IMG/VR virus record: IMGVR_UViG_3300049595_003884
Location: 1-54,196 of that record
Strand: one strand, 5' to 3'
Source: a virus
DNA length: 54,196 nucleotides
A model generated the notes under the pieces. It had not been told where the DNA came from, made no database searches, and saw only the letters and a program-made list of their open reading frames with translations. A program made the position numbers and the translations under genes. Positions 18,215 to 45,841 of this stretch are shown here, piece after piece. The stretch's first letter is position 1; every line of letters begins with the position of its first letter.

Positions 18215-19597
18215 TTAAGTTGTTTTTTGCTGTGCTTCTCTTTCTTTTCTTTTTTCAAGAAGCTCCTTAACTCTATCTCTTTTTCTTTCTTCTTGTTGTT
18301 CTTCAAAACCTAAGAATGTTACTGATGATTCAGTGTCAATCTCCAACAATTCATTATTGAATTTACAGTTTTCAAAAACAACCCCATCCTTACCCAAACG
18401 GGATTTGGTGATTGCAATTGTCGCCAAGTTCATCTCCTTTTGTTGAAGTGTCTTAGCCACAGTGATGATTACGTGACCAACCTGTGCTTTTTTAATCGAC
18501 CCACCCATTTGGTCAGTCGTTACAACTTCAGAGGAAATTGAAGACCTATTACCTTGTGTAGCAGTCCATCCAACAAGATTCAATTCGTGACACATTGCCT
18601 CGAACCCTCTCATTACAGAACCTTCGGCTTTCCATTCGTCTTTCGCACTTGATTCAGGTAGAACACAATCAATATAATCCAACAAAATTAAATCAATTTT
18701 GTTTCCGTCTGCAATCATTTTTCTAACTTGATTCTTAAGTTGATTCATGGTCATTGTATCTGACGCAAGTTTCTTAAGAATCAATTTGTTTTTCATTGTT
18801 TCTTGAATCTCAGTAATCTTGGACATAACTTCATCTCTGTGGTTAGCAAGATTATCAGGCTCAATACCAGTCCATATCGTAAAGTGTTTTCTTTGAACAA
18901 TCTTCGGGTTGTCTTCAAAAAATACTTGGAGAACGTTGTAACCCATATTGAATGCGGTATTCGCTATCTTTGTTAAGATTGTAGTCTTACCAACACCTGT
19001 TGGTGCTAAGATAACTCCAATCTCACCTTTAGCCAAGCCACCCTTAAGTAATTTGTCAATACCTGGAATACCCATTGGAATAGGATGACGATAGTCTTCA
19101 TCTAACACGGTTTCTAATCCTGTAAAGATATCTGATGTTCCTTTGTCTGTTTGACCTACCTGTAAAGCTTCTCTAACTAATCCCTCGACTTTGTCATAAG
19201 ATTCGAAGTCACCTTCAGTGATGATTTTCTGAGCCCTATCCATAGCCTTCTGTAACTCTTGTTGTTTACAGAATTTCAAAGCCTTCTCCTGAACAAATAC
19301 TGTTCCTTCGAATGGAGCTTCTTTAACTTGTTTAAGGGTATCTAAAACAATTTTAGCGACGAGTTCCTGTGAAACCTCAGACTTAACAATTTGTTCTAAT
19401 GTGTCAAAGTTGGGAGTTGATTCATATTTCTTGAAATATTCTTTAATCATCTGAATGATGATTTTGAAATACTTGTTATCAAAGTATGAAGATTCAATTA
19501 CATCCATTATAGATGAAGAAAATTCCTTGTCCTCTATGATTTGGTTTAATAATTGTATCTGAAACTGATTGCCTAAATAATCGAAATTCTTATTCAT
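18215..19597 (-). CDS. 41: Replicative DNA helicase, DnaB/gp41 family
   Basis: Ring helicase that unwinds DNA ahead of the replication fork. The N-terminal 150 residues are helical, as expected for the DnaB/gp41 N-domain. The RecA-like motor starts near residue 170 with IPMGIPGIDKLLKGGLAKGE, the Walker A site is APTGVGKTT (198-206), the H1a-like glutamate appears in VLQVFFEDN, and Walker B is LILLDYID. The C-terminus is charged and basic. Length (460) matches T4 gp41 (475). The Walker A loop begins with alanine instead of glycine. Neighbours are the 150-residue protein and ribonucleotide reductase, consistent with a replication operon. No primase gene is visible in the window. Confidence 0.88.
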   Translation of the reverse strand: MNKNFDYLGNQFQIQLLNQIIEDKEFSSSIMDVIESSYFDNKYFKIIIQMIKEYFKKYESTPNFDTLEQIVKSEVSQELVAKIVLDTLKQVKEAPFEGTVFVQEKALKFCKQQELQKAMDRAQKIITEGDFESYDKVEGLVREALQVGQTDKGTSDIFTGLETVLDEDYRHPIPMGIPGIDKLLKGGLAKGEIGVILAPTGVGKTTILTKIANTAFNMGYNVLQVFFEDNPKIVQRKHFTIWTGIEPDNLANHRDEVMSKITEIQETMKNKLILKKLASDTMTMNQLKNQVRKMIADGNKIDLILLDYIDCVLPESSAKDEWKAEGSVMRGFEAMCHELNLVGWTATQGNRSSISSEVVTTDQMGGSIKKAQVGHVIITVAKTLQQKEMNLATIAITKSRLGKDGVVFENCKFNNELLEIDTESSVTFLGFEEQQEERKRDRVKELLEKRKEREAQQKTT

Positions 19598-28100: not shown

Positions 28101-31100
28101 AATGTTAAATTAACCACGGTATTAGCCTGAGTGTCTTTATTTAAACATTCAAATTTAGTTTGATTCAAGTTTACACCAAAGGATGGAATAACATAATAAT
28201 CATCATTCAATTGTGATGTGGCCGCTGGTATACAGACATTCGGAGTTGTGAAAGAGTCATTAATATTTTTTGGTATCAAGATTGACCACGTAGCCAAAGA
28301 AAGACTCACACCATTTTGAGATGTATTAAAATTGGAATTTGGAAACTGATATAACAACATACCATCGTTGATTGATGATTGTATTTCTGATGATGTGTAA
28401 TTTTTATAAAGATTTACACCATTATAAAAATAGTTGAAATCATTTACCAACTTTGGATAAAAACCTGGTTGAATTTTAATTTGTTGGGTATTTTGTGTTT
28501 GTAGTTGGATTGAAATTGTGTTTGTTGTATCCTTTAACTTAACATCATATTGTTTACCTACGTTGTTTGTTACTGGGTCGTAGTTATTAATGTAGTCAAA
28601 GTTCTTCCACACATTATCCAAGATATCCACCCTATCATCAACATATTTCTTATATCTGTGCCAAACAGAACCTAACTTAAGAACCCAAGCATAAGGCATT
28701 TTGTGTATTGCACCGAATTTGTTAAATACTGAAGCAATATAATCTAATTCCGTTTGTTGACCATTGGTCTTATATTTTTCCCTCAAAGTCCCCAACGGAA
28801 GTGAGTTTAAAAATAAATAAGCCGCTGTTACATATGGATAAGTGCTACCAGTCCTATCATTTTCAACACCTTCTTGAATCGCATTTATAAAATATGGTGT
28901 ATTAATTATTGATGTTGATTTTTTAGCTGGCATTGCTCCTGATGGCGAACTATAACGACTGAATCCCTCTGTTGGTATGAACTGATTAGGGTTTCTCGTA
29001 TCATAAAAATCTTTAAGGTTTTGTTGAGTGGTTTCAATTGGTTGAACCAAGAAACTAGGTTGACTGACGTTGAGATATGAAAAGTTTGTAACAGGTCGGT
29101 TAGTCGTATAATCGTAAATGTTTTCAAAATTAGAAAGTTGGTTTCTATCAGGAAAAACTTTTAAACTTTTGTTTGTGCCATAAACTTGTTGTTGCTGACT
29201 CGACTGACTGTTAGCTAAATTTGCTGAAGACCAAACATAGTCCCTGAAAGGATATGTATCAATAATTAATGGGTCGTTTGGAGCCTCTTTAGCCAACTGT
29301 AATAATTCACCTCTGTTCACATTTACCTGTGGTTCTAAACCTAACTCGTCTGTTCCTAAAATTCTGAATGGTGTCTCAACTTCACTTTTAATGTAAGGAG
29401 TTATAAAGAAATCTCTGATAAAATCTTGCCAAGACTTTCCTGTTCCAAAATTTGAATAATCTCTAAGATAAGTTGTAAAATTGGTTGATGTGTAAGGCTC
29501 GTTTTTCAAATTGAATGCCAAGAGCGGTGCACTTGTTCCTACCGAAACCACAATATTACTTGTATCTGCGGTTTTGTTTAAATTAACAATTTGATTTTGT
29601 TGATTTGCAGTTCCTCTTATGTAATTAGAATAGTGTGATGTAACAAATTGTCTTTCCCATATTTCATATAAAAATTTGAGTATTTCCTTATTAGAAAACG
29701 GAACATTCGATTGAGGATATTCTATCGCATTTATGCTAACTAAAGGAGTTGTTAGTTGACTTGCGATTGGTGTTTGAGATGTTGGCACCGAAAACTTTTG
29801 GTTAAGTCCTTTCATATACTCTTCCACGAACTCAACTTCAGGCCATGTTTGGAACAAATATCCCTGTGTTATATCTACAACCGAAGGGTCTCCAATATAC
29901 GTTAATTGGAATCTACCTTTTTTGTCGTCTGGTGATTCTTTGAAGAAAGAAGGCCAAGGGTATACTGGTTCTTCCGCGGTGGATAACCCCTGATTTAGGG
30001 TTGCGGCATTTCTAGCAATACTCACATTTTTTCTAACCTCAATATTTGGCGCTGAAGATACATTATTCTGAACCACTTGTCTCCTGATTGGGTCATTTTT
30101 TACATTCCAAGCATTACTGTGAACATCATCCATTAATCTTAAGAAACCTTCAGTATTAGCCATAATAACCGCAATGATATTTCTAGCGGTTGGATTGAAT
30201 CCAATTCCTAACGATTGACTTTGAATACGATTTTTTAAATCTTCTGTTATTGCTGCTTCAAACTCTTGAAGTTTTCTATTTGCCTCAGTAAGAATCTGAC
30301 TCATGGTTTGGATGAATCTATTCTTACCCTCAAAAACATATAAAGGTGGAGATGTTTTTCTTGATGACCCGTTAACTTTTTCTTCTCTCGGGGTTAACTT
30401 TAATTCGATTTCTTGTTTAACTTGTTGGGTCTGTCCCGAGCTTGGTGTTGTTACATTAAAAAATTGTATTGCGGTTTTGGGTAAATTAACATTAACAATG
30501 TTTAATGTCTCAAGGAGTTTTTCATACCCCAAATTATTTAACTTTATCTCAGCAGGTTTGTTTAGACCTAGCGTTGGATTCTCGGTTAAAATTGAGACAT
30601 ACTTTGTGAATATACTTTTCAACTCAGTAATTGCCACTTCTTCTTGGGTTAGATTATTAAACAAGTTACTTTTGAAAAAGTAAACTTTGGTGTTGTCATC
30701 TAAAATAATAGGCTTAGGGTCAAGATACTTGTAAGACCAACTACTATTTGTCCCGAATACCGCAGTTTGGAATTCAGTTGCGGCCTTAACATAATTTCTC
30801 ACATTTGTTAATGGTTCTACATTTACCTTCGGATATGAGTTTACAATCTCCTGTTGGAATGTGTCGAATTTGTTTATCAACTGCATCATAGTTAATTCAG
30901 GGAAATCCGGTGGTATCAATCCTTTAGACTTATATTCACTATAAACTTCAACTATTTTTTGATATCCCTTCTCAGACACAAAACTAGCAGAAGTGCTTAC
31001 TGACGCTTTAGATGGGTCAGTATTAGTTGTGTTTGACACAACATTACTTTGTTGCTGTTGTAAGTTTTGATTTGTTGTTGTATTGTTTGCTGAGACATTA

Positions 31101-31894
31101 TTTGAATTAATATTATATCTCTTACTATACATGTGAGGTGTCGCTAATAAATGAGATATCGAAATTTCGTTCAACACGTTAAACTTAAACCCTTTGAAAT
31201 CCAAACTTACAGTATAGTTTCCACTGGCACTATTAAATCTCGCATTAAACTTTTCTAAATTCAATTGATATCTAATCGCCTGTCCGTAATAACCTTTTAA
31301 TGTAAGATAGAATTGTGGGTAAGGTAAATTGAAGAACGCAGCATATGGTGAGTTATTACCTAACTGAAATAATGCCTTTCCCTGAACATCTTCAAGTTCA
31401 ACAGATACTGACGGAATAAAAGAAGATGAAACCTTTACGTTAATACTTGTAATACCTAAAAGACCGTTGTCGACAATATCTTGTTCATCAACAACTGTGG
31501 CAACAGTAAATCCTTTTGAACCTGCTTGACCTACATTAGTTTTACTTAAGGGTTGGTTACTTGCTTGACCTATTAACGCTCCCGCACCTGTCAACTCATC
31601 ATAATAACCAGTCCCAAAATAATTATTTTTTCCTGGTCTGAGGAAATTAATTTTGGCAATTGATACAGTTTGTCTTACACTATCTTCAGGACTTACTCCA
31701 ACAAGTAACTTTGTTCTTGGTAAAACATCAGCTTCAAGATTTGCATACATGATAAGATTCTCATGGTCAACTAATCTTTCATAAATTTTACCATCACTGT
31801 TAATTGTGCGGTTTGGGTCAACAAGTATGATGTTATTGTAATCAAATTCAACATATATGTTACCGTTGTTGTCCGCTTGAATGTTACCTGCCAT
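25109..31894 (-). CDS. Giant baseplate hub protein with C-terminal TIG domain (2261 aa)
   Basis: Probably forms the central baseplate hub. The start at 31894 (MAGNIQADNNGNIYV) is preferred to an upstream ATG at 31921, which would overlap the gp53-like gene more deeply. The N-terminus is a beta-rich collar. Around residues 1650-1890 the pattern KGRSYTCSVTVLGNALIQPT, MYFNLRHVPMFNGPYMITSV, THISAG-like SHTISAGNFITEFEG is that of hub proteins of the gp27/gpD family. Residues about 1945-2130 look helical with PAARFKDLNAYLTYMKNII, reminiscent of glycosidase accessory segments. A proline-rich linker (TPAPTPTCPP) leads to a final IPT/TIG Ig-like domain (about 2172-2261: YSPTSATAGTIITINGTNLE). The hub assignment is moderate; the lytic reading is tentative. 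Confidence 0.7.
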   Translation of the reverse strand: MAGNIQADNNGNIYVEFDYNNIILVDPNRTINSDGKIYERLVDHENLIMYANLEADVLPRTKLLVGVSPEDSVRQTVSIAKINFLRPGKNNYFGTGYYDELTGAGALIGQASNQPLSKTNVGQAGSKGFTVATVVDEQDIVDNGLLGITSINVKVSSSFIPSVSVELEDVQGKALFQLGNNSPYAAFFNLPYPQFYLTLKGYYGQAIRYQLNLEKFNARFNSASGNYTVSLDFKGFKFNVLNEISISHLLATPHMYSKRYNINSNNVSANNTTTNQNLQQQQSNVVSNTTNTDPSKASVSTSASFVSEKGYQKIVEVYSEYKSKGLIPPDFPELTMMQLINKFDTFQQEIVNSYPKVNVEPLTNVRNYVKAATEFQTAVFGTNSSWSYKYLDPKPIILDDNTKVYFFKSNLFNNLTQEEVAITELKSIFTKYVSILTENPTLGLNKPAEIKLNNLGYEKLLETLNIVNVNLPKTAIQFFNVTTPSSGQTQQVKQEIELKLTPREEKVNGSSRKTSPPLYVFEGKNRFIQTMSQILTEANRKLQEFEAAITEDLKNRIQSQSLGIGFNPTARNIIAVIMANTEGFLRLMDDVHSNAWNVKNDPIRRQVVQNNVSSAPNIEVRKNVSIARNAATLNQGLSTAEEPVYPWPSFFKESPDDKKGRFQLTYIGDPSVVDITQGYLFQTWPEVEFVEEYMKGLNQKFSVPTSQTPIASQLTTPLVSINAIEYPQSNVPFSNKEILKFLYEIWERQFVTSHYSNYIRGTANQQNQIVNLNKTADTSNIVVSVGTSAPLLAFNLKNEPYTSTNFTTYLRDYSNFGTGKSWQDFIRDFFITPYIKSEVETPFRILGTDELGLEPQVNVNRGELLQLAKEAPNDPLIIDTYPFRDYVWSSANLANSQSSQQQQVYGTNKSLKVFPDRNQLSNFENIYDYTTNRPVTNFSYLNVSQPSFLVQPIETTQQNLKDFYDTRNPNQFIPTEGFSRYSSPSGAMPAKKSTSIINTPYFINAIQEGVENDRTGSTYPYVTAAYLFLNSLPLGTLREKYKTNGQQTELDYIASVFNKFGAIHKMPYAWVLKLGSVWHRYKKYVDDRVDILDNVWKNFDYINNYDPVTNNVGKQYDVKLKDTTNTISIQLQTQNTQQIKIQPGFYPKLVNDFNYFYNGVNLYKNYTSSEIQSSINDGMLLYQFPNSNFNTSQNGVSLSLATWSILIPKNINDSFTTPNVCIPAATSQLNDDYYVIPSFGVNLNQTKFECLNKDTQANTVVNLTFNPSMYNGSVRSLWSAPNYGYFNSDEITKPSYDEYMTFIPSGSSVSPMFLNPVEGYSKIEEIFGVFDAKTLNLMEQEFLNYCKPITNVSYRVNQSTINATVIQMDSNFRNFQSFMRSTMTVFPTAPSNRVETLFQDTITKQFDNFNSQIKGFMQYDVILRNGNPSNYSRRIFDSYVSYQNTVQRVISPINFTPYTLNSVPTLGGTVTLAQSRQRYPNEWKALEKEVGFSTIDRLRYKDSGSYITDFFVDNNIGFTVENIALCSKLIKMYATQKLLNPSLNASTFKGQLNTYLNGLDTYQDLLLNQLIAGFKAALPNVNQPTEAQINSQVQSMQGKVETYEVFKTLNDKWVAGSDYKTKTLFEDILFLDRASRNIGDTIILDIFDIKNMLNKNYLNEGMSVYTLISGMLMKNNFTVMPLPAYVNFYNVQDVDGVTVPNPEGSLEFADNLWGTFRNVDYRKSGPKMVCFYVGKPSGHLNLPNIVSGYGDDSFEFRRSSEVPLLENQSGKKDYAISNKCVGFNVDIGIRNQNIFSSFSVGQDNGKATSESIQSVLEMANQTNTRTVGNQNASLYNYYKGRSYTCSVTVLGNALIQPTMYFNLRHVPMFNGPYMITSVSHTISAGNFITEFEGVRQGVYDLPPIDNFIQAINQNLLTQIEALVVNKTDQPTTKGTTTQSIANNVVQDADENTLSEPNTCSENLNSSYISWVTTGGTETKISQLEFANAIKASAPNNVALQTIIYIITYVRGYTKSLSDAGQFSSWDNNFGIITLDKDNYSQTENFIQNSFFCVSTKTLGGVKKLPAARFKDLNAYLTYMKNIISPRINEIQDQGGLLKYYVTSFPVDTMKTEDYEKDKQRYVKDFTPLFNAAALNAAQNGLKGGIIVEEPPKPQETRSQGNTPAPTPTCPPTTVSSYSPTSATAGTIITINGTNLEFVTSITVDNQPVDVRSIQLIGTTKIKFSVPTITNAIPGVQVNIVLRSSNNTSDITLTPPLTYIYT

Positions 31895-32207
31895 AATAAT
31901 AAAAATAATTTTCCAAAGCACCCTTGTAATCCTGTAATGAAGGAATCAAAGGAAATGGAATTACGAGTATAGCACCATCGTAGATATTATTTTCTAAACC
32001 CCCAAATTGTGGGTTGGCCTGTAATATTAACCAACTAAAATATGGAGAGTTGTAGAACTGTTGGGACACTTTATCCAATCTACTTTGTGCAATCTTATAA
32101 ATGTATGTTTTATCCGTGGTCTTCTGTGGAATATTCACAAAAGGCACAACGGTTTGTTCACCATTTATAAGAAACTCACTGTATCTATTATAGTAAGGAA
32201 ATCCCAT
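31884..32207 (-). CDS. 53: Baseplate wedge protein gp53 with LysM-like fold (107 aa)
   Basis: The pattern TYIYKIAQSRLDKVSQQFYN, SPYFSWLILQANPQFGG, IYDGAILVIPFPLIPS matches a LysM-like module as found in T4 gp53 and related small baseplate proteins (a short helix, the W/L-L-x-x-A/N-P turn and the G-x-x-L-x-I-P end). T4 gp53 is 196 residues; this one is nearly the bare module. It lies between the 1657-residue protein (shared base at 32207) and the hub (11-base overlap), as expected for a baseplate operon. It could also be called a generic LysM tail protein; the gp53 name rests on fold pattern and context. Confidence 0.75.
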   Translation of the reverse strand: MGFPYYNRYSEFLINGEQTVVPFVNIPQKTTDKTYIYKIAQSRLDKVSQQFYNSPYFSWLILQANPQFGGLENNIYDGAILVIPFPLIPSLQDYKGALENYFYYYGR

Positions 32208-35200
32208 TAGTTAAGTTTTATTTTTGAAATAAAGATTGAGCCTTGAGGGTCATTCCATGTTGTTTTATTTGTTGATTGGTTTGTTGTTGCCCCAAGAGCC
32301 TTTATTAAATTTTTCTCATTGTCTGTAGGATTAGTGTTCAATTCATAATTAAACAATCTAGTCTTACTTGGGAACGGAGTATATTTGATAAAGTTTTTAA
32401 GTTTATTTGTTTCCATTTCATTCAAGAAGGCCTGTGTCAGAGCGTTTTCTTGGTCGAATAATGGTTTGGCTTGTGACAACCAATACGCATCAAATTCTTG
32501 TGATATGTTTGTGTTACTACCCGCAGTCCCAAGTAATTTATCGTTATTAATAATATTACCAATCAACGCATTTTTAAACGTTTGATAGTTTTCACTTTTC
32601 AAATCATTTGATAATAACATATATTCACGTTTCAATGGAAGACTAACGAACTTGGGGTCCTTAGAGTATTGGTTAAACACTACACTCTCTAATGACTTAG
32701 CCGTTGTATTTTCTTTGGTCTCTCCATACACCAAATATCCATTATAAGAATTACCTTGATAATTAAACTGTGAAGACGTTGTCGTTAAAACATAAAACTC
32801 ATTCAAATTGGTTTTTATTTTAGTTATATCGTCAACCATTTCTATCAACGTTGTTGCAGGTCCTCCAGCAGCAACTTCGGTTGTTCCACTTGTTTTATAC
32901 AATCTTAAGTTTCCGTTCTTTTGTTGTAAACCGTCTAACTGAGTTCCAACTCCTGTATTATATGGTGCTGTATTAGCTCTACTTATGAATTGTAGATATG
33001 TTTGTTCCGCATTAACCATATCCTGATTAATCTTTGTCAATCCGTTTTGGAAAGTCCCTTTTTTATTTTTAACATATTGAACGAAGTTTTTTCTCAATTC
33101 TCTAATTGCCTTTTCATTAAATTGTTTTTGTGGTCTTGTAATGAAGAACATGAATGGGTCTTGAGTTGCTTCAGTAGTTGACTCAATATTTCCAATAAAA
33201 TCATTGGTAACTTTATCAATTATTTGTTGAATTGAATCGGGTTTACCAAATAGATAAACATCCTCACTTGGTGTAACCAAGAAATTCCCTTTGGTATAAA
33301 TTCTTGCAGTGCTCCAATTCTGAAGTATTGCGTTGTTATATTGATTGAGAGCATCCCTACTTTTATTAACAACAGTTTGGAAATATGTTTGAGTTGTTGA
33401 AACTAAATTATCCATGAACTGTTTGTATGATACCGTTCCTGTCTCCCCACTAGCGGTTATAACTGTCGTTAATCTGTCACCAATCGTATTTTCATTTGAT
33501 TGTCCGTTAAGGTTTGGAGCTTGGTTTACTGTCGGAACAGCGGCCTGATTAACTAATTGTAAGAATTCTTTATCAAGAACTTTGAGACTATCATCGGTAA
33601 CATCCGCTCTATCATCCCACATCTCTGTGTTTGCATAATAATTGAACGTCAGAGCATTTTGTAATTTATCAATGGATTCCTTGAGTCCACTACCACCAAC
33701 AAACTTGAATGACATTGTAACATTGGCAATCATGGGTTGGATACCAATACCCTCGGGATTAATATCTAAACTTTCATAACTAATTTGAAGTCCATCAGGT
33801 ATGATTTTAGTATTATAGAAATCACCGATTCTTAAAACTAAAACTGGTGGTGCTCCAAAGGCTGTGTTTACCGCATCATTAAATTGAAGTTCTTGTTTTC
33901 CATCAATTTCTTTAACCGTTGGTATTGTATCTCCAGGTCTCATACATTGTTGTAAGAATGTCAATCTTGAGTTCAATCCTTCAGGTGTTGTAGAATGAAA
34001 GGCGGGTTGGAAGAATTTTAACTTCTCTCTAAGTGAATCATACACCATAGGTGTTTCTTCTTTAATCGTTTCAAAGTAATCACACTCAGACAATAAAGTC
34101 CTTAAGACTCTCTTGGTGATATTATCAGGTTTTCTTATTTTTGTTTCAATGTTTTGTGCATTGATTGGTCTCAACGGTTCATTTCCAGGTCCTCCTGAAG
34201 GTTGTGTTGGTTGTGCAGGTTGTTGGTTCGGAACTCCTGTTGTTGCAACAATCGAAGAAATACTAACTCTTCTACATGCCATAGCAGCTACCGAGTAGAT
34301 TTGTGAAGGGTTGTTTCCCTCTGCACTATCGTCCGAGTCACTACAATTGTATTTTGTTTCATCAAACCTACCTTCATTCCATCTTTTTGCATTTGCGTTT
34401 TCCCCTTTTGGAACTTGTCTGAATTTAATTCTACCGATATTGATTAATTTTTTTAAGGCGGGGTCTGATTCAAAAAATTTAATAACCGAATCTATTCTTC
34501 TTTCCGATAACGTAAGATTATAAGGTGATTTACCTGCCGCAGATGCACTTCCCTCCAATGTAATAGTAACTATTTTATTTGGATTATTTTCCAACGTGCT
34601 AGCAAGTTGAACGAAGAACTTGTCTTTAACCTCGTCATAGTTTTTTGCAACTACGTTACCAAAAAATTGTTGAAGGTCTGGTTTACTATATTCTGTGCTA
34701 CCACTTTGTGCTGTGTAAATTGAATAATATGCTGGATAAGTTGAAATGTTTCCTTGAACAGGGTCGTTGTTAGGAAAATACAATGAGAAGTTCTGAAACT
34801 GTTTCAAATCATCACTAGGTGTATTTTGACTTGGTTCTGCAACCAAAGTAGCCTGATTACCTGAATTGTCCTTACCTGTTGCAACAGTGTCTCTAATGAA
34901 CCCTAATTGCTCTTTACTCAAATCCCCTGAATTGATAATTTGTTGAAGTTCGTTCAATTCACCAGGAGCAACTGTATAGTATTTCTTAGCTAACTCATAA
35001 AGGTCATATTTTCTACAACCAGCAAAGAATGATTCAAGAATACTATTAACTCTATTCTTATTTGTTTCATTACTAAGGACCTTGTTAACAATAATATTTA
35101 AAACTGAAGGATGGTCAACAACAATTTTCCAAGTTATAGAACCTGTTCTTTGTGTGTTAGTATAGGTATAAACTGGTTCAGGTCTTCCTAAGAAATCTGT

Positions 35201-37180
35201 TGATTTCCAGTTAGCACTCACAGACTCGTTAAATGTTAAACCATATGGTGGGAACCACATGACTCTACCACTATTAGGTCCTCTCTCACATATTGGCAAT
35301 TCCGAAACACTGAACCCTGGTGTTGCAGATGTTCTCCAAGCTAAATTTTCAAGTGAGAACATATATTTTTTAGCATAAGATACACCATTAGCAGTATCGT
35401 TAACTAAGTTAGTTGAATCTTGTCCTCCCTCTCTTTTGTTTGGAGCAATATTCAAATTGTATGTCGAATCCATTACAGAGTATGCAAACTTTCTACCTTG
35501 AGTTGTCATACCATCTGTTTTCTGTAAATCATTATACTGAAGATATGGTATATCTTTAGCAAAAACTCTACAATATTCTGTTCCAACCTCTTGTCCGATA
35601 GCTCCTGTATAAGTTAAAACTCTCGAACCTTTAGTCATCTCATTATATCCATCGTGGAATACCTTACTGACTTGGTCAATTGCATTACCGACGTGTTGTA
35701 ATCTTCTACCACCTTGTGGTTGGCTATCGATGATTCTTTGAGTATCATCCATAATAGAACCTTGTCTGAACTCTATGTTTGTTGATTCAGTGCTATTATA
35801 TGAAGATGGTTTGAAGTCTTGGTCTTGGTCAGTAATCTCACCACCAATACCGACTTTCTTACCAGCATTACCTCTGTATTTTGGAGAAACCCAAGTAAAC
35901 CCACCTTCTATACCACCACCATTACTGTATGTTGGTCCGTTAGCAGCAAGTTTAATTTCTCTACTAACTCCTTCATATAGTTGAGCTAACTCAGAAGGTC
36001 CATAGACAGGTGCTTCTTGCTCTTGTCCAAAAGAGTTGACAGGTATATCACCTCCTGGTGAGAATACTCTAGACGGGTCTGAAGTTATCGAACCAACATA
36101 GAAATTGCTATTTGATTCAATAGTTCCAACCAAAGCACCGGCAAGTCTGTCAAATATTGTTCTCTGATAATTCGGCTTATATCTGTTGTAGTCTATGTTA
36201 TCAAACAATCTAGACTTCTGACCTCCACCTGTATTGTTCAAAAATAATTGAGACCCAGATTTGTCAGCACCAACTAATCTATTAAAGAATCGACCAACCG
36301 TAGACCTTCTGAACGCATTGTTCAGTTGTTGTATTGTTGTTGGTTGTCTTTGATTAATTGATGGGTCAAAGTAAGAACCAGGGATAGTTGAGACAGGAAT
36401 AATACTACCACCAAGTCTTAACGCGAAATCAGTTGCCGCCAATATTGGATTTGCAGGAACTGTAATCTGATAGTTTGGTTCTATCAATGGAACCCTTCCT
36501 GTAATAAGATTAAGAATGTCAGTTCCACCTCTTACGTTGAAAGCATTTACTCTTCCTATTGTATTTTGTCTAATACCCGTGGCAATTCTTCTTTGAAATT
36601 CCGCTCTAAGCGTTTCCGCTCCTAACTTAGCAATAAACGAATCCTGAGATAAAAGTCCGTTAGAACCTGTTGGGTCTGGTGATAATAAAATCGATACAGG
36701 ACTATACGTCGATGGAACGAAGGTTGTTGGGTATGGTTGGTTGTTTGATGTGTTATTTGTAGGTGGTCTATTAATCGATTCAAAGAATGGAGCACTGTCT
36801 AAAGGTAGTTCTCCTCCATTTGAAAACACGTTGAGTGGTTTCCACTTTTGTGACTCAAGTGCCGATTGACCTACAATGTTTGCATCTTGGTATCCATATT
36901 CACCTTCGTTTGATTTTGTATTTTGTAAATTACCAGTGTCGGATGCCGGTTGGAATCCTCCCTCAGCACCATATCTATTGAGTGGGTATAATTTGTTGGC
37001 TAAACTCGGTTCATCTATTAAAACATCAGGAGTATCTAAAACAGCCCTATCCGATTGAATATACTCGTAGTTAGTTGGGGGCGTAGTTCTACTCGGAGAC
37101 TTTGCATATGGTGCTAAGTTCTTTGTAATAAGTTTTTTTCTAAACCCTTCGGAACTAATTAAATCTAACGGACTACCCAT
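32207..37180 (-). CDS. Large tail/baseplate protein with OmpA-like domain (1657 aa)
   Basis: A long structural protein downstream of the tape measure. The N-terminal 450 residues are disordered-looking, proline/glycine/asparagine-rich. Around 500-760 is a mixed domain with GFSVSELPICERGPNSGRVM and WFPPYGLTFNESVSANWKST. Residues about 860-910 (KIVTITLEGSASAAGKSPYN, LTLSERRIDSVIKFF) match the OmpA C-terminal peptidoglycan-binding motif, in which LSERR is typical. Around 1100-1150 the segment FNDAVNTAFGAPPVLVLRIG, DFYNTKIIPDGLQISYE is like tube-initiator or LysM-associated baseplate proteins. The C-terminal part is helical. Order after tape measure and before gp53 and hub suggests a baseplate-tube or gp48/54-like role with a wall-binding domain. 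Confidence 0.65.
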   Translation of the reverse strand: MGSPLDLISSEGFRKKLITKNLAPYAKSPSRTTPPTNYEYIQSDRAVLDTPDVLIDEPSLANKLYPLNRYGAEGGFQPASDTGNLQNTKSNEGEYGYQDANIVGQSALESQKWKPLNVFSNGGELPLDSAPFFESINRPPTNNTSNNQPYPTTFVPSTYSPVSILLSPDPTGSNGLLSQDSFIAKLGAETLRAEFQRRIATGIRQNTIGRVNAFNVRGGTDILNLITGRVPLIEPNYQITVPANPILAATDFALRLGGSIIPVSTIPGSYFDPSINQRQPTTIQQLNNAFRRSTVGRFFNRLVGADKSGSQLFLNNTGGGQKSRLFDNIDYNRYKPNYQRTIFDRLAGALVGTIESNSNFYVGSITSDPSRVFSPGGDIPVNSFGQEQEAPVYGPSELAQLYEGVSREIKLAANGPTYSNGGGIEGGFTWVSPKYRGNAGKKVGIGGEITDQDQDFKPSSYNSTESTNIEFRQGSIMDDTQRIIDSQPQGGRRLQHVGNAIDQVSKVFHDGYNEMTKGSRVLTYTGAIGQEVGTEYCRVFAKDIPYLQYNDLQKTDGMTTQGRKFAYSVMDSTYNLNIAPNKREGGQDSTNLVNDTANGVSYAKKYMFSLENLAWRTSATPGFSVSELPICERGPNSGRVMWFPPYGLTFNESVSANWKSTDFLGRPEPVYTYTNTQRTGSITWKIVVDHPSVLNIIVNKVLSNETNKNRVNSILESFFAGCRKYDLYELAKKYYTVAPGELNELQQIINSGDLSKEQLGFIRDTVATGKDNSGNQATLVAEPSQNTPSDDLKQFQNFSLYFPNNDPVQGNISTYPAYYSIYTAQSGSTEYSKPDLQQFFGNVVAKNYDEVKDKFFVQLASTLENNPNKIVTITLEGSASAAGKSPYNLTLSERRIDSVIKFFESDPALKKLINIGRIKFRQVPKGENANAKRWNEGRFDETKYNCSDSDDSAEGNNPSQIYSVAAMACRRVSISSIVATTGVPNQQPAQPTQPSGGPGNEPLRPINAQNIETKIRKPDNITKRVLRTLLSECDYFETIKEETPMVYDSLREKLKFFQPAFHSTTPEGLNSRLTFLQQCMRPGDTIPTVKEIDGKQELQFNDAVNTAFGAPPVLVLRIGDFYNTKIIPDGLQISYESLDINPEGIGIQPMIANVTMSFKFVGGSGLKESIDKLQNALTFNYYANTEMWDDRADVTDDSLKVLDKEFLQLVNQAAVPTVNQAPNLNGQSNENTIGDRLTTVITASGETGTVSYKQFMDNLVSTTQTYFQTVVNKSRDALNQYNNAILQNWSTARIYTKGNFLVTPSEDVYLFGKPDSIQQIIDKVTNDFIGNIESTTEATQDPFMFFITRPQKQFNEKAIRELRKNFVQYVKNKKGTFQNGLTKINQDMVNAEQTYLQFISRANTAPYNTGVGTQLDGLQQKNGNLRLYKTSGTTEVAAGGPATTLIEMVDDITKIKTNLNEFYVLTTTSSQFNYQGNSYNGYLVYGETKENTTAKSLESVVFNQYSKDPKFVSLPLKREYMLLSNDLKSENYQTFKNALIGNIINNDKLLGTAGSNTNISQEFDAYWLSQAKPLFDQENALTQAFLNEMETNKLKNFIKYTPFPSKTRLFNYELNTNPTDNEKNLIKALGATTNQSTNKTTWNDPQGSIFISKIKLN

Positions 37181-37217: not shown

Positions 37218-39107
37218 TTATTTGATTCTACCAGGAGTTATCTTGGATTGTTCTGTAACAATTTCGAAAATTCTTTCTTTCAATGTTAACGAACCTTTAC
37301 TTAAAATTTCTTCAATTATTTTGGAATCAGCGCCTGTGGCTGTTACATTTATATCTATTTTTCCACTTATTGGTTTTACCTCTATTGTTTCGTTGACACT
37401 GACTCCTCCTCCTCCTACTGTAGCTCCACCCTTCCCTGTTGCTATAGTTTCCGCAGCTTTGTTTCTACCGAAAAGAAAGTCTGTATTTATCTTTGTGCCT
37501 GAAGAAATATCACCATCTCTGTCGGGAAATTCAGGCCCCAACTTTTTTGGACCAGATTTCTTTGTTTTAAAAAAATTCAAAATTTCGTCTAATTTTTCAC
37601 CCCCTAATGAAGAACCTCCCATTACTTTTGAAAACATATCACCGAAACTATCGAGAGCCGAACCTCCCAAGTTTGTAATCTCTTTTTTCAAACTTTCGGC
37701 AAGTTTTTTTCTTTCAGTTTCACTTGTTGCAGCGTCTCCCATTTTTTTCAAAGTTTGTTCCATTCTTTCCTCAAAACCAGAAGGTAAGAGGGTGTTGGTT
37801 ACTTCTCTACTCTTTTCTCTCAAGCTCGCAGAACCCTTTCCAATATTTTTTATAGCTGTTTGATTACCAGTAATACCCCTTAATATTTTTTCATTAATTT
37901 CTTTTAGGTTTTGCAACATACCCTCTTGAGTATTTAACTGACTTCTTTGAACAGATTCGATATCTTTCGGTCTATCTTTTTCGGCTTGTAATGTTGCTTT
38001 CAGTTGGTCAGAAGTCAAATCTGTTAGTTTTTTATATGATTCTTGTCCTTTATCATCCACAACTTTAATTTCAAAACCACCCTTATCCTTATTCATTCTT
38101 GACAAGTTAGCAATCAACTTTTGGTCATCCTCACTGAAACCAGTTGCAATTCCTGTTTTCTTTATTTCAGACATTCTCATATCAAAATCAGCAGCAGATA
38201 ATGCCGATTCTCTCATTGATTTAGCACTAACACCTGTTTGTTTTTCCATTTCTCTCATTGTCAAAATACCTTGAGGGTTTATTTTGAACTGTTTAGCCTC
38301 CTCATCAAAATATGTAAATTGTTTTGCAACATTAATTAAGGAGTCTTGTAATCCTGATGGGTCATTGATTGATTGGTTCATCAACATGAATGGGTCGGTT
38401 AGGTTTCCTGCCGAAACACCTAGTCTTTGGAATGCGGATGCCATCTCGATTGCTTGGTCCGGGTCTAACACTTTTTCAGCCAACTCAAAAGTTTCTTTCA
38501 TATCGAACCTTAACATCGACGCTTGTGCTGCCATTTTTGTCAACCCATCAACACCACCTTGGAAATTAAAACGAGATAGTTTATCGGTATTACTAAGCAC
38601 GTCGGCCATGACAGCTTTGGCGTTCCCTCCTATATCGTTTACATAATTAATAGAGTCTACAACCTTTTCAGATATATCTGAATACATTATACCAACTTTT
38701 GCAAACTGGTCGACAAGTTTGTCAACGTCTTTTCCTATAACTTTACTTGTAGCGAATAACTCTTGAATATCATCTTTTGAAGCAATAACATTTCTTCTCG
38801 AACCTTTAGCAATTCCATCTATTGTTTTCCCAACATCTTCAAATTTTCCACCTAATCCAATAACTTCGGGAGAAACATCTGCAATAGCTTGCATCATTTC
38901 AGTGACTCTAGTTCTACCACCAATAAACTCTTTATTCAATGATTCAGCGGCAATTGTAATTTTATTAACTTGATTTAAAATCTCGTTAATTGGTTTCAAA
39001 CTTCTTTTTGCCTCTTCTTCAAGTTTATTAAACGCAGTTGTAATATCAGGAATACTACCTGTTAAATTTGGGTCTGTGGTTCCTTGTGTGCTCGTTTCAT
39101 CAAACAT
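37218..39107 (-). CDS. Tail tape measure protein candidate (629 aa)
   Basis: Sets tail length and occupies the tube lumen. The protein is largely helical, low in cysteine, and contains long amphipathic runs such as FNKLEEEAKRSLKPINEILN and QVNKITIAAESLNKEF, followed by a region of paired helices (SKDDIQELFATSKVIGKDVD, KLVDQFAKVG) typical of tape measures. The C-terminal 100 residues are glycine/serine-rich then beta-stranded (EVKPISGKIDINVTATGAD). Length 629 compares with 590 for T4 gp29. By the usual rule of about 1.5 angstroms per residue this gives a tail of around 95 nm. It follows the tail tube and chaperone, the standard tail-gene order, and has its own promoter-like box 15 bases upstream. 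Confidence 0.78.
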   Translation of the reverse strand: MFDETSTQGTTDPNLTGSIPDITTAFNKLEEEAKRSLKPINEILNQVNKITIAAESLNKEFIGGRTRVTEMMQAIADVSPEVIGLGGKFEDVGKTIDGIAKGSRRNVIASKDDIQELFATSKVIGKDVDKLVDQFAKVGIMYSDISEKVVDSINYVNDIGGNAKAVMADVLSNTDKLSRFNFQGGVDGLTKMAAQASMLRFDMKETFELAEKVLDPDQAIEMASAFQRLGVSAGNLTDPFMLMNQSINDPSGLQDSLINVAKQFTYFDEEAKQFKINPQGILTMREMEKQTGVSAKSMRESALSAADFDMRMSEIKKTGIATGFSEDDQKLIANLSRMNKDKGGFEIKVVDDKGQESYKKLTDLTSDQLKATLQAEKDRPKDIESVQRSQLNTQEGMLQNLKEINEKILRGITGNQTAIKNIGKGSASLREKSREVTNTLLPSGFEERMEQTLKKMGDAATSETERKKLAESLKKEITNLGGSALDSFGDMFSKVMGGSSLGGEKLDEILNFFKTKKSGPKKLGPEFPDRDGDISSGTKINTDFLFGRNKAAETIATGKGGATVGGGGVSVNETIEVKPISGKIDINVTATGADSKIIEEILSKGSLTLKERIFEIVTEQSKITPGRIK

Positions 39108-39133: not shown

Positions 39134-39156
39134 AAAGGACTAAAATTTAGTCCTTT
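39134..39156 (-). terminator. Palindromic hairpin at the end of the frameshift extension
   Basis: AAAGGACTAAA, one central base, TTTAGTCCTTT. The frameshift-frame stop codon (39147-39149) lies inside it. The sense strand continues TTTATCTATTTATAGG, so it may be a weak terminator directly before the tape-measure promoter box. Confidence 0.45.
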
Positions 39157-39302
39157 CTATTATTTTCTATCCATTTATCCAAGAGATATTTCCTCATAAA
39201 AATCGGCATTGATATAAAATCTTGGTATGTTATTTTAAGTAATGAGTTCAGGTAGTAGAATTCATCAAGTTGTCCTTTCCTATAATCAGAAGAAAGGGCG
39301 AA
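39147..39302 (-). CDS. Frameshift-frame extension of the tail assembly chaperone (51 codons)
   Basis: After the six-T run at 39306-39301 the +1 (equivalently -2) frame is open for 51 codons to TAA at 39147. The translation runs FALSSDYRKGQLDEFYYLNS, LLKITYQDFISMPIFMRKYL, LDKWIENNRKD, a well-formed helical sequence that resembles second domains of tail assembly chaperones. The 0-frame stops four codons after the T-run (RPFF, stop). A P-site TTT can slip +1 onto TTC before a CGC codon, or -2 onto TTT. The fused product would be about 293 residues. An ATG exists in the same frame at 39326, but the codons between it and the T-run encode only the antiphase reading of the conserved 0-frame end, so frameshifting is the better explanation. 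Confidence 0.7.
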   Translation of the reverse strand, partial: FALSSDYRKGQLDEFYYLNSLLKITYQDFISMPIFMRKYLLDKWIENNRKD

Positions 39303-40029
39303 AAAACTCAACCCCAAAACCAACATTCACAGTTAGTCTTTCTCCTGATGGGGCAATTACTTCTTTGAACATGTTAAGTCTTGGTTCATTCTCGTTCATG
39401 AATGTTCTGATATATTTGGAGTCAGAAATTGGCATTTGGTCAACAAATTTTGCAATATCCCCTTTATCACTTGAACCATCAATTTCAACAATCTGTCTTT
39501 GAAGTCTCCACGTCACTCTTGGTGCAACTCTACCCATAGGATATGAATCAACCATCTTAGTTATTTCATTCAATTCCCCATAAGTCAATGGTTTCAATTT
39601 GATTGATACCCCTGACCTTGGTAATGTTGTCACGAAAGTTCCATCTTCTTGTGGGTCTTGACCTTTGACAATCGGTAGTGAATCAAGAATTACTTTTGTT
39701 GAGAATGGCTTCTTTGTTGCCGGGTCTGTTAGAGTCATGTCAATCTCGGGACCGAATGATGTATTCCTTAAGAAGACCAAGATAGCCTCAATGTCTCCCT
39801 CCAATAAATCATCAATTCTCACATCAGGTTCATATATTTTTGACCTTAGTAATGTTGCTGTGATATCATCAGCCCCACCCATGAGAATGTTCTCATCGGA
39901 TGCAGTTAGATAACCAACTTTGAGTGATTTCTTTTTATTCTTATAAAACGCACCTTGAGATGGTAATGGAACCATGTCGTGTGGTAATGTAAAGTTTTCT
40001 TGACCGTAGTCTCTTGCTTGATTTTCCAT
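39286..40029 (-). CDS. gp26-like baseplate/tail assembly chaperone, 0-frame product (247 aa)
   Basis: The N-terminal segment PLPSQGAFYKNKKKSLKVGY followed by LTASDENILMGG matches the T4 baseplate protein family that includes gp26, which also resembles tail assembly chaperones (P-L-P-S-x-G-x-x-Y and L-T-A-x-D-E). The rest has a conserved-looking YGELNEITKMVDSYPM and TWRLQRQIVEID. It ends GVEFFRPFF. Location between the tail tube and the tape measure is the usual place of the frameshifted tail chaperone. The start codon is 2-3 bases after the T-tract of a strong hairpin, so its expression must depend on readthrough of that hairpin or on translation restart. Confidence 0.75.
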   Translation of the reverse strand: MENQARDYGQENFTLPHDMVPLPSQGAFYKNKKKSLKVGYLTASDENILMGGADDITATLLRSKIYEPDVRIDDLLEGDIEAILVFLRNTSFGPEIDMTLTDPATKKPFSTKVILDSLPIVKGQDPQEDGTFVTTLPRSGVSIKLKPLTYGELNEITKMVDSYPMGRVAPRVTWRLQRQIVEIDGSSDKGDIAKFVDQMPISDSKYIRTFMNENEPRLNMFKEVIAPSGERLTVNVGFGVEFFRPFF

Positions 40030-40100: not shown

Positions 40101-40589
40101 TTAGTAAACCAATACACAACGGTCAGGACGAAGACTGGCTGAAATGTCTGCCAAAGCGTCTGTATTGTAAGCTAACGTTCCGAAGTTCACACTCGTTAAG
40201 AATGTTCCGTATAGAATCCACTTTTCTACTACCACACCTGTTGGGTCTAATAGTTCGAGGTCGATATCTCTTTTGTAACCCGCAGCATAACCCATACGAC
40301 CTGTCACTGATTCAGCGTGTAAACGAACCCACTCCATTAGAGCTTGAGCCGCTGACGGTCCAATTGGGTCTCTGAATTTAACAGGAATCTCATCCCAGTT
40401 AAATCTTCCTGCTACATATGTAGAAGTGTTTAAAAATTGAATCTCTGTAGACATTATTTTGATTGATGGTCTAGAAGTTGATTCTACGAACCATTCATTA
40501 ATACCTAAGCTTGAGGGAAATCTCATGATGAATCGATTCTGGCGTTTCGGTTCGTAAGGTATCGGCATTTTCATTAATAAATCAGCCAT
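40101..40589 (-). CDS. 19: Tail tube protein gp19
   Basis: A 162-residue gp19-family tube protein, close to T4 gp19 (163). Recognisable parts are YEPKRQNRFIMRFPSSLGIN and WFVESTSRPSIKI near the N-terminus, RFNWDEIPVKFRDPIGPSAA, then WVRLHAESVTGRMGYAAGYK and RDIDLELLDPTGVVVEKW with LYGTFLTSVNFGTLAY, which together form the beta-barrel subunit that stacks in hexameric rings inside the sheath. It follows an accessory HAD gene, has a promoter-like box 34 bases upstream, and is followed by a strong terminator, as expected for a highly expressed structural protein. Confidence 0.92.
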   Translation of the reverse strand: MADLLMKMPIPYEPKRQNRFIMRFPSSLGINEWFVESTSRPSIKIMSTEIQFLNTSTYVAGRFNWDEIPVKFRDPIGPSAAQALMEWVRLHAESVTGRMGYAAGYKRDIDLELLDPTGVVVEKWILYGTFLTSVNFGTLAYNTDALADISASLRPDRCVLVY

Positions 40590-42631: not shown

Positions 42632-45600
42632 TTAGATATTTTCAAACGAAGCTCCTGTTGGAGTAATGAAGAATTCAATGTCGATGAATTCTAATGCCTT
42701 CGTAGGTTTTAAGTAAATCTTACCTGTAAGTGTATTTCTATCCAAATCCTCAGGGGTAGATGAAACTGTTACACGGAAATCGTATAAACCTCTGTCTCTT
42801 CTGATTGAATCTAAGATTGGGTTAACACTGTCTAAGAATTGTTGTCTAACGATTTGGTCGTTTTGTTCGAACAATAATCTTACAGCCACCGCTGAAATCA
42901 ACTTACGAGCTTGTAATAACAATCTTCTAACATTTAATCTGTTAAGAGCGGTATCAGCAACTTGTAAAGTTTTGTTACCCCAAATTACAGTTCCTACGTC
43001 AGAGAAAGTTGCGATAGGGTTAATTCTACCTTGATATAATGTATCTCTATCTTCTTGAGTTAGTTTAACTCTCGCTTTAACTGAGTTTACAAGACCTCTC
43101 GTATAACCCGCTGATGCGAACCAAGGGAATGCGATGTTATCAGTTAATGCTAAGTTTCTACAAACTTCACCTGTTGCAGGTAGATAGATTTGTGTATTAT
43201 TAACAGTGTCTCTTACAAGTATCCAAGGATAGTAAGTCGCTGTGTAGTTAGAATCGATTCCTGTGTTATCGAGAGCATCTACAGCTTCTTGTGGATAAAC
43301 AATTAACTGAGGGTCAGTAGCATCTGGTGAGAACATGTCATAGTCAGGAGTCGTTGCGATATACACTGAATCCGCTCTTTGGAATTGAACCATATCGATT
43401 GCTGATTCAACTAAGTTTGAGTTATCAATATAGTTGATTGATGCAGTTGCGAATACGTTGATGTTTGTAGATTCAGGGTTTGAGAAACTTAAGATACCAA
43501 GTAAGTAAGCGTAGTAGTCAGTGTTAGCAAAATCACTTCTATTATTCTCAACCACTATTCTCTTGAAGATACCATCACCAGTTGCTGTTGGGTATCTTGG
43601 GTCAGGTGCGAAACCTGCCATGAAACCTGAAGCACCTAATTGGAATCTATCTTCGTTTGTTCTCCACTCTCTGTAGATATCCCAACCATCGAATCCACCA
43701 GCAAAACAACATGTGTATTTTCTAGCGTAAATAAAATAGTAAGGGTTTTCCTGAGACTCTGGGTCATTTCTGAATTCAGCAACACCACACTCAAAAGCAG
43801 TTTGACCACTTGTGTCGTATATATTACCAATTGTTACAACGGTTGCACCTGAGTCCATATGGAAACCTTTTGAGAGATAATTCCAAGGAATAGATTCAGT
43901 TGCTTGTGCCCAATCACCAATAGGGTTTTGTTGACCTTTGTATTGTAAGAACGAATCATCAATACCGTATTGTGTTGCGAAACCTAAATAAGTTCTTCTA
44001 ACAACATCACCAGGAGATTCAACCGCGTTAGAGCCACCTGAAGTAGTTCCAAACGGAGGGTTATAAATTACTTCGCCAGGGAAGTTATATTTTGTTTTGA
44101 ATACGATATAAGGTGAAGGGTTGGATGCTGTTTCATACTCTCTTTGTGTATATCCATTGAATCCACAAGGAAGAGCATCGATAGGAGCACCGTCCGCCAT
44201 TTCGACCATGATGTATCTTGAAACTAAAGCGTATTCACCATTTGAAGTTCCAATTCTAACACCGATAAAGTTGTTAGTTGCTGGGTCCATTGTGCAATTC
44301 GTATATTTTTCAAGAACTACAGGATTTTGGTCTGTATCAAAGAAATCTCTAACCAAAATATCAAATGTCATATTATTATATGAAAGGTTTGCAATTGAAA
44401 CCTTAACTTCTGTATTTGCAGCATCACCATCAGAAATAGATATAAATCTGAAAAGATTATAAACTCTATTACCTCTTAGTTCAGAAACAAAGTAAGGAGT
44501 CTTAGGTGACTGATATCTTTGTAATTTCCAAGCTATTGTTGTTGTTGAGTTTGTAACTCTTGCTTCAGGTAAAGCAACTAATTCACAATTCAAACCTCTA
44601 ATGTAACTTTGATTGAATGCGTAGTTTAAAGAACCTGGATAAATTTCTTCAACAAACAATGGAACTTCATTTCTCGATTTTCCAAAGTTATCAATACCAA
44701 ACACTTTTGTAAGATATTTTGAAGAAGACGCTAACAACGATGTCTCGAAAGAGAACGTGTCTGCATCTTTTGTAACACCAGAAACTAAGAAAGTTCCAAA
44801 AGGATTCTTAGTAACCCCTGAGTATTGGTCAGAACAAACTAACTGAACATCAGTTAATCCAGTAACCTCATAAACAGGTCCGTGATTAGGACTTGAAGCA
44901 CTATTAGTGAAAAGAGAAATACCTCTTGAACGTAAAGTAGCTACAACCATATTGTTATAATCAAGGAAAGCGGTTCCAGAAAAAGTATAACTATTACCTG
45001 ACACTGTTCCACTATAAACAGTGCTACCTAAAGAAACTAAATTAGAAACTACGTAATCAAATGAATATCCTGAATAGTTGTTTCCATTAGGGATATCAAA
45101 TGTTGCGTAAAACCAAGGGTCGTTATCTCCAGATGATAAATCGTTATTATCTAAATTAGTTGAATCACTTCCAAACGCATTAACAATTGTTGTATAACCT
45201 GATAAATTCGCATAATCAGTTCCAGGAATTGACCCGTAAACAACTGCTGTTGTTGCAGATAAAGAAGGAGTATCAATTATATTACCAACGTATGTGTTAA
45301 AACCTTCAGCATATGTTGAAGTTGAACCGTTTGATAAAGTAAATTGAGTGTTTAAATCTAAAGCCACAGGTGCTGGTAACGCACCTCCAACGAATGTAAT
45401 TGTGTTTCCTGTTGTAGAACCAATAAAAGACGCACTCCAAGGAGCTGTTGCAATCGCCGAGTTGATACCGATAGTTGTCGGGTCAGGGTTAGCAGTTACT
45501 CTTATACTCCAAGATGGACCTGCGTCATAACCAGATAAACCAAGAATTCTTGTAAAGAACATTTGGTTAGACTGTTGGAGATAAGATTTGGCAATATACG

Positions 45601-45841
45601 CCGCTTCATATTTAGGGATTTGTGTATTCACGAACTTCTCTGGAATTGTTCCACCAAAGTAAGCTTGGAATTCATCGTAGTTGGTAATAAATACAGGTTC
45701 AAATGCTGGTCCTTTGATGGATTCCCCAACAAGACCTAGTGTAGTTACACCGACACTTTGAGCCACGAAAGATAAGTCAGTTTCAGAGGTGTATACACCA
45801 GGTGAAACGAATACTTTTTGATTTGCTTGTGCTGTTGCCAT
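42632..45841 (-). CDS. 18: Tail sheath protein, oversized (1069 aa)
   Basis: Contractile sheath subunit. The N-terminus (QKVFVSPGVYTSETDLSFVA, VGLVGESIKGPAFEP-like TTLGLVGESIKGPAFEPVFI, ITNYDEFQAYFGG) and the C-terminal domain (ARKLISAVAVRLLFEQND, FLDSVNPILDSIRRDRGLYD, FRVTVSSTPEDLDRNTLTGK) are typical of sheath proteins; the C-terminal part forms the conserved inner domain that contacts the tube. T4 gp18 is 659 residues; about 400 extra residues lie between about 130 and 560, beta-rich with many glycines and serines, and are probably surface-exposed decoration domains. A terminator follows and a promoter-like box lies 33 bases upstream. The gene shares its upstream region with the divergent ribbon-helix-helix gene. 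Confidence 0.9.
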   Translation of the reverse strand: MATAQANQKVFVSPGVYTSETDLSFVAQSVGVTTLGLVGESIKGPAFEPVFITNYDEFQAYFGGTIPEKFVNTQIPKYEAAYIAKSYLQQSNQMFFTRILGLSGYDAGPSWSIRVTANPDPTTIGINSAIATAPWSASFIGSTTGNTITFVGGALPAPVALDLNTQFTLSNGSTSTYAEGFNTYVGNIIDTPSLSATTAVVYGSIPGTDYANLSGYTTIVNAFGSDSTNLDNNDLSSGDNDPWFYATFDIPNGNNYSGYSFDYVVSNLVSLGSTVYSGTVSGNSYTFSGTAFLDYNNMVVATLRSRGISLFTNSASSPNHGPVYEVTGLTDVQLVCSDQYSGVTKNPFGTFLVSGVTKDADTFSFETSLLASSSKYLTKVFGIDNFGKSRNEVPLFVEEIYPGSLNYAFNQSYIRGLNCELVALPEARVTNSTTTIAWKLQRYQSPKTPYFVSELRGNRVYNLFRFISISDGDAANTEVKVSIANLSYNNMTFDILVRDFFDTDQNPVVLEKYTNCTMDPATNNFIGVRIGTSNGEYALVSRYIMVEMADGAPIDALPCGFNGYTQREYETASNPSPYIVFKTKYNFPGEVIYNPPFGTTSGGSNAVESPGDVVRRTYLGFATQYGIDDSFLQYKGQQNPIGDWAQATESIPWNYLSKGFHMDSGATVVTIGNIYDTSGQTAFECGVAEFRNDPESQENPYYFIYARKYTCCFAGGFDGWDIYREWRTNEDRFQLGASGFMAGFAPDPRYPTATGDGIFKRIVVENNRSDFANTDYYAYLLGILSFSNPESTNINVFATASINYIDNSNLVESAIDMVQFQRADSVYIATTPDYDMFSPDATDPQLIVYPQEAVDALDNTGIDSNYTATYYPWILVRDTVNNTQIYLPATGEVCRNLALTDNIAFPWFASAGYTRGLVNSVKARVKLTQEDRDTLYQGRINPIATFSDVGTVIWGNKTLQVADTALNRLNVRRLLLQARKLISAVAVRLLFEQNDQIVRQQFLDSVNPILDSIRRDRGLYDFRVTVSSTPEDLDRNTLTGKIYLKPTKALEFIDIEFFITPTGASFENI

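Follow-up and report, generated by a model that had tools for sequence, protein, structure and literature searches.

A candidate programmed +1 frameshift at UUU_CGN, with a conserved upstream stem, in a gp26-like phage gene

The tail assembly chaperones of phage lambda, gpG and gpGT, and other frameshifted chaperones (PMC5009743) are encoded by a gene that lies upstream of the tape measure gene and gives two products, the longer of which carries a short C-terminal extension read in another frame. The gp26-like gene of the virus record IMGVR_UViG_3300049595_003884 from IMG/VR (positions 1 to 54,196; the whole stretch of 54,196 nucleotides [nt] was analyzed and is called the window below) has a conserved C-terminal extension in another frame, a predicted second product, and a probable tape measure gene downstream. 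It very probably contains a programmed +1 ribosomal frameshift at UUU_CGC, with an upstream stem, that would yield the short and the long product of a putative chaperone gene. Lambda and most other systems shift by −1 (PMC5009743), whereas the window has a predicted +1 shift at UUU_CGN in the unrelated T4 gp26-like family, and the stem is upstream of the site rather than downstream as in the lambda-type systems (PMC5009743). In T4 itself, gp26 and gp51 are two separate PF12322 genes on opposite strands, in place of which the window has a putative frameshift pair.

The closest described sites are those of influenza PA-X and the amalgaviruses (PMC3498833, PMC5052127), which share with the window a P-site UUU, a skipped C, an A-site CGN, and a +1 product. 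At the influenza site UCC_UUU_CGU, the +1 direction was proved by mass spectrometry by Firth and colleagues (PMC3498833), and UUU_CGN recurs as a +1 site in plant amalgaviruses (PMC5052127). These are eukaryotic viruses in which the motif lacks an upstream stem, and the likeness is one of mechanism, not of descent. In bacteria, UUU_Ynn is prone to shifting (PMC5009743). The bacterial release factor 2 gene (RF2, prfB) has a +1 P-site slip at CUU_UGA, to which a duplex immediately 5′ of the E site contributes (PMC5009743). A sister clade of the window's relatives uses CUU_U, as RF2 does. The window differs from RF2 in having an intramolecular stem and a sense codon that is rare or slow.

Synthetic refolding hairpins and the attenuator hairpin of SARS-CoV (PMC3639245, PMC6321510) also lie 5′ of a shift site. 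Both in yeast and on 70S ribosomes, a hairpin placed against the E site increases +1 and weakens −1 shifting, apparently by acting like the RF2 Shine-Dalgarno duplex (PMC3639245, PMC6321510), and +1 shifting on 70S ribosomes is raised in vitro by an upstream hairpin (PMC6321510). Those elements are designed or come from a coronavirus, whereas the stem of the window is natural and conserved in phage genes. Among phages, tail genes reach the +1 frame in Listeria phage PSA, by a +1 shift on a proline codon in the capsid and tail shaft genes, and in phage Mu, by a −2 shift (PMC5009743). No account of frameshifting in gp26-like genes was found in the open-access literature searched, although an earlier description is possible.

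The predicted shift site and the conserved extension

All genes discussed here are on the minus strand. The elements of the predicted shift are the following.

39286 to 40029, minus strand: gp26-like 0-frame open reading frame (ORF), 247 amino acids (aa), C-terminus GVEFFRPFF; PF12322 and PHROG 150
39298 to 39306, minus strand: predicted shift site TTT_TTT_CGC, with E-site UUU at 39304-39306, P-site UUU at 39301-39303, and A-site CGC at 39298-39300
39147 to 39299, minus strand: +1-frame extension ALSSDYRKGQ...ENNRKD, 50 residues, including the stop at 39147-39149

The 0 frame ends in GAG TTT TTT CGC CCT TTC TTC TGA, four sense codons past the T6 run, just as the initial annotation had described when it proposed a programmed frameshift in this gene. 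The C to be skipped is the complement of position 39300. From the site to the stop, the +1 frame encodes 50 residues past Phe-Phe, and a +1 fusion would have 293 aa. The site is common to 80 IMG/VR relatives with 70-100% identity. IMG/VR was also scanned, neutrally with respect to nucleotides, for any codons encoding (D/E)FFRPFF-stop; the 199 matches listed, earlier relatives included, are all inside gp26-like ORFs. Among these matches listed, the second Phe is TTT and the Arg is CGN in 199/199, and the first Phe, in the E site, is TTT in 195 and TTC in 4. Arg in the gp26-like genes of the relatives is AGA or AGG in 86% of cases, with CGC and CGG at ∼0%, and the E-site TTT exceeds the 75% TTT usage in the same genes. 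These codon counts and the covariation counts given below share ancestry. Within the window, the ORFs of at least 250 aa (15,187 codons) contain no TTT_CGN in frame and only three CGC. As a control, the same peptide in 57 unrelated bacterial and archaeal genes is encoded by TTT_CG (20), TTT_AG (14), TTC_AG (13), and TTC_CG (10). By sequence, the site belongs to the UUU_CGN +1 class, with a P-site UUU followed by CGN in frame. The codons CCT TTC TTC past the site are likewise invariant, because the +1 frame encodes L-S-S there; this coding leaves the UUU and the skipped C unexplained, and the C encodes nothing in the +1 frame.

The initial annotation had also claimed that the +1 (or −2) frame continues with protein-like sequence, and this holds throughout the relatives. 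Within 35 codons past the 0-frame stop, the +1 frame has a stop in none of 118 distinct relatives, against 116 and 117 of the 118 in the other frames. Together with the lack of in-frame TTT_CGN in the longer ORFs of the window, this lies well beyond chance. The ratio of nonsynonymous to synonymous polymorphism (pN/pS) in the same relatives is 0.24 in the +1 frame versus 0.88 and 1.64 in the other frames, these being pairwise counts with shared ancestry rather than samples independent of one another. Homology links the extension with its counterpart in the sister clade (hhalign 97.1%; common motif MP-x-x-x-R-K/N), and the extension has no match in Pfam or PHROGs. A conserved C-terminal extension in another frame is what one finds in frameshifted tail assembly chaperone genes. 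The alignment of homologs that the initial annotation had proposed as a check hence shows the extension to be conserved in the +1 frame, not absent, and a programmed frameshift in the gp26-like gene is strongly supported by the comparative evidence.

An upstream stem at a fixed distance from the site

Close to the E site, on its 5′ side, there is a conserved base-paired stem, as in upstream-hairpin stimulators. The first reading of this DNA had missed it. Its parts are the following.

39349 to 39354, minus strand: 5′ arm, GCCCCA; 97.7% of cells paired, compensatory changes in two pairs
39317 to 39348, minus strand: 32-nt loop, holding the ATG at 39324-39326 and a conserved UCAGGA at 39343-39348
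39311 to 39316, minus strand: 3′ arm, UGGGGU; 7 nt between its end and the P-site codon

The distance from the 3′ end of the 6-base-pair (bp) stem to the P-site codon is 7 nt, or 8 nt if one counts only the invariant 4-bp core. Codon-level conservation also flags two blocks, numbered from the skipped C: CCCC at −53 to −50 and GGGG at −15 to −12. The core is formed in 124/124 distinct sequences, where random redraws of synonymous codons lead one to expect 53.6, and the three exceptions to CCCC/GGGG in the distinct set are all compensated. A deliberate search for exceptions, that is, for contigs with a non-GGG codon, gave 22, and in 20 of them Watson-Crick pairing is restored in full (CACC with GGUG, GUCC with GGAC); many of the 20 are nearly identical and were hence counted as two lineages, separated by the tree. 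A scan aimed at the fourth G gave L328, in which GGGG is displaced by one base, and L329, with one mismatch. The pair counts of the stem beat 500/500 shuffles on three of five measures and 499/500 on the two others. Among 2278 possible 4-bp helices, it alone is formed in at least 95% of sequences with two-sided change, barring its own one-base-longer register. RNAalifold, run unprompted on 72 distinct sequences, predicts the 6-bp stem and no other structure.

The sister clade has a short hairpin (e.g., ATCCC-AATT-GGGGT or TACCG-ATTA-CGGTA) that reaches to −10 or −11. It is stronger than in all of 500 synonymous redraws (z 4.6), and among 150 positions along the gene this one scores highest. 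So the two clades, with different pairings, preserve a stem at an equal distance from the site.

The conserved UCAGGA in the loop is an observation apart: it is conserved at the codon level (GGA in 122/124, TCA in 104/124), and its pairing with the stop region has no covariation support. Rfam has no match within the window. Two other candidate stimulators were rejected. Downstream of the site, folding 39295 to 39190 gives no improvement over shuffled sequence (z −0.48), and GGGG as an internal Shine-Dalgarno motif would be lost in the GGUG and GGAC lineages, which yet keep the pairing with the 5′ arm.

Several points weigh against a +1 shift driven by this stem. Its compensation amounts to two lineages. 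L324 (GGCG with CACC) and L329 (GGGA with CCCC) each break one pair, and L314, which has a one-codon deletion, lacks the stem, with a possible local hairpin TACCT-CTTCT-AGGTA read by eye. The consensus energy given by RNAalifold is modest (−8.5 kcal/mol), and the loop is of 32 nt. In the synthetic hairpins, the effect on −1 shifting was halved when the spacing went from 2 to 5 nt (PMC3639245). The window's stem is 4-5 nt away from the E-site codon, toward the upper end of the range tested. Finally, the conserved E-site UUU would suit a −2 slip too.

The alternative that survives best accepts the +1 shift and gives the stem another role, such as hiding the ATG of the loop, stabilizing the mRNA, or serving as an unrelated regulatory site. 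The presence of ATG 39326 and of the unexplained UCAGGA in the loop would fit such a role, as would a spacing at the long end of the synthetic tests. One would then have to account for the fixed distance between the 3′ arm and the site, and for a sister-clade hairpin with different partners at an equal distance; ATG hiding in particular is contradicted by the many relatives that lack the ATG. We regard another role as unlikely, at perhaps the level of a serious minority opinion. The stem is probably a +1 stimulator, which is less certain than the shift itself.

If the stem does stimulate a +1 shift, most ribosomes would complete the 247-aa gp26-like protein. A fraction would stall while UUU (39301-39303) occupies the P site and CGC, a very rare codon, the A site; tRNA-Phe would move one base forward from UUU to UUC, and GCC would be read next, giving a 293-aa protein with a 50-residue, helical-looking extension and the predicted junction peptide LTVNVGFGVEFFALSSDYR (...EFFALSSDYR). 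The stem (39349-39354 with 39311-39316) would re-form in the wake of the ribosome, close to where the mRNA exits, and favor forward motion, in the role that the Shine-Dalgarno duplex plays for RF2. The products may act as short and long tail assembly chaperones, as lambda gpG and gpGT do, and tail assembly would presumably need them in a given ratio.

Direction of the proposed shift and other routes to the extension

A −2 and a +1 shift arrive in the identical frame, and the initial annotation had left the choice between them open. The frame it gave was right, and relatives that lack T6 favor +1, at UUU_C, as the direction. A +1 shift requires UUU followed by C (tRNA-Phe re-pairing on UUC), and a −2 shift requires a U run. 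In the latter case, the P-site tRNA would move two bases back on T6, as in the −2 shift of phage Mu, and the junction peptide would have an extra Phe (LTVNVGFGVEFFFALSSDYR, ...EFFFALSSDYR). The TTTTTTC of the window and the excess of E-site TTT described above would agree with this. However, the slip site is TTC_TTT_CGN in 4/199 of the matches listed, TTC_TTT_CGT in phage GXN1, TTC_TTT_TGG in a marine group of relatives, and TTT_CTT_TGG in Flavobacterium phage immuto and its kin. All these mismatch in −2 re-pairing, while their +1 re-pairing (UUU to UUC or UUU, CUU to UUU) stays good, which is why the direction is read as +1. Nor does a −2 shift give a reason for the required C of CGN after UUU. 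Of 63 distinct sequences from the sister clade, 34 have TTT in the P site, 26 CTT, and 3 CTA, and none has TTA or TTG, even though TTA makes up half of all Leu codons in this clade; the three CTA members are less clear, and a slip at the preceding UUU_C is possible in them. From this re-pairing logic we infer a +1 shift and hold a −2 shift to be improbable.

A pseudoknot or long hairpin around the site, formed by a 10-11 bp pairing of UCAGGAGAAA with UUUCUUCUGA, is the minimum-free-energy fold predicted for the window alone. It shows no covariation (0 pairs with two-sided change, and 500/500 shuffles reach the observed value), and the z-score of the fold in the window is only −1.45; such a structure is very improbable.

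The extension might instead be translated independently, as a separate 59-aa protein starting at ATG 39326 (or at a GTG or TTG), an outcome that the initial annotation had named as one that would refute the frameshift. The ATG is present in the window and in many relatives, and L175 and L181 appear to translate a separate ORF from an ATG directly past the stop. Among the 124 distinct relatives, however, 67 have no ATG in the open +1 stretch upstream of the site, and 12 have no ATG, GTG, or TTG there. Moreover, L028 has a stop right behind the ATG, and L067 has one between the ATG and the site. The ATG overlaps codons of the conserved peptide NVG, and an independent start leaves the conservation of TTT_CGN unexplained. 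Since a start is impossible in relatives with a blocking in-frame stop or without a start codon, independent translation cannot be general, and we give it very little credence for the window. Even less credible is transcriptional slippage on the T run giving mRNAs with a changed number of U, as the T6 of the window clade and the T7 of some relatives might suggest, given that the relatives with TTCTTTCGT, TTCTTTTGG, and TTTCTTTGG have a maximal run of four with the extension in an unchanged frame, and that slippage has no role for the C of CGN or for the stem. The site, the frame, the conserved extension, and the stem are established by comparison among relatives.

The gp26 family and its tail module

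The 0-frame protein matches PF12322 (E = 3.2e-8; 34 bits versus a Pfam cut-off of 24.5), as do 47 of 51 aligned family members and both gp26 and gp51 of T4. It also matches PHROG 150, "baseplate hub" (E = 1.3e-11). An AlphaFold model of the 0-frame protein only (predicted local distance difference test score [pLDDT] 87) matches predicted T4-like baseplate hub assembly proteins in BFVD, with E down to 6.5e-33; no solved structure is similar to it. The putative chaperone role of the gene is drawn from its position and from the annotation of T4 gp51. On the minus strand, the order is sheath, two unassigned genes, tube, gp26-like gene, +1-frame extension, and a gene of 629 aa.

42632 to 45841, minus strand: tail sheath gene (PHROG 23, E = 6.3e-54)
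40101 to 40589, minus strand: tail tube gene (PHROG 4542, E = 2.9e-24)
37218 to 39107, minus strand: probable tape measure gene, 629 aa, assigned by position; PHROG match weak

The tube and sheath genes upstream were thus identified by PHROG matches. The 629-aa gene downstream has only a weak PHROG match for tape measure, and immuto, LIS04, and others annotate a tape measure there. Past it are two very large minus-strand ORFs, at 25109-31921 (2270 aa) and 32207-37180 (1657 aa), the second of which has no PHROG match. A ribonucleotide reductase gene (16220-18082, minus strand; PHROG 367, E = 5.7e-129) adjoins the tail module, followed by a DnaB-like helicase (18215-19597). No tRNA genes were found in the window, and a DNA-level search of phage records with it gave no matches.

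In the wider family, the following cases are readings of single sequences, without the statistics of the window clade. Extensions in the +1 frame are found in Bacillus phage SP-15 (L387; TTT_TTT_CAC), Listeria phage LIS04 (L388; TTT_TTT_AGT), and Microcystis phage Mel-JY01 and Rhodothermus phage RM378 (both TTT_TTT_TGG). Extensions in the −1 frame are found in Synechococcus phage Syn19 (L390), Xanthomonas phage XacN1 (L389), the 595-kb phage LR756511 (L189), and L165, where they adjoin U_UUU_UUC or U-run sites at the same Phe-Phe position. In L175 and L181 the extension forms a separate ORF whose ATG lies 3-6 nt past the stop, which suggests coupled re-initiation instead of frameshifting. In other members of the gp26 family, the extension seems to be reached by −1 shifting or translated from its own start.

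None of the records of annotated relatives is marked as frameshifted. Those of SP-15 and LIS04 show either the short product alone or a small separate ORF, and in Mel-JY01 (L187:2405-3485) the two halves are deposited as overlapping hypothetical proteins.

On balance, we lean toward a broader conclusion: that a large group of T4-like phages has a natural, covariation-supported 5′ stem dedicated to a UUU_CGN +1 shift, and that the gp26 family, at a single homologous Phe-Phe site, repeatedly moved among a +1 shift, a −1 shift, and separate genes with an unchanged two-protein output. Automatic annotation overlooks the long product in all the named relatives examined. The idea is testable, since relatives infect B. 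subtilis (SP-15) and Flavobacterium (immuto). If it is true, frameshifted chaperones would extend to T4-like phages, where none is reported in the open-access literature searched; a PA-X-type UUU_CGN site would work with bacterial ribosomes; and +1 shifting would be driven by a natural, conserved upstream stem, of a kind studied so far mainly in designed constructs.
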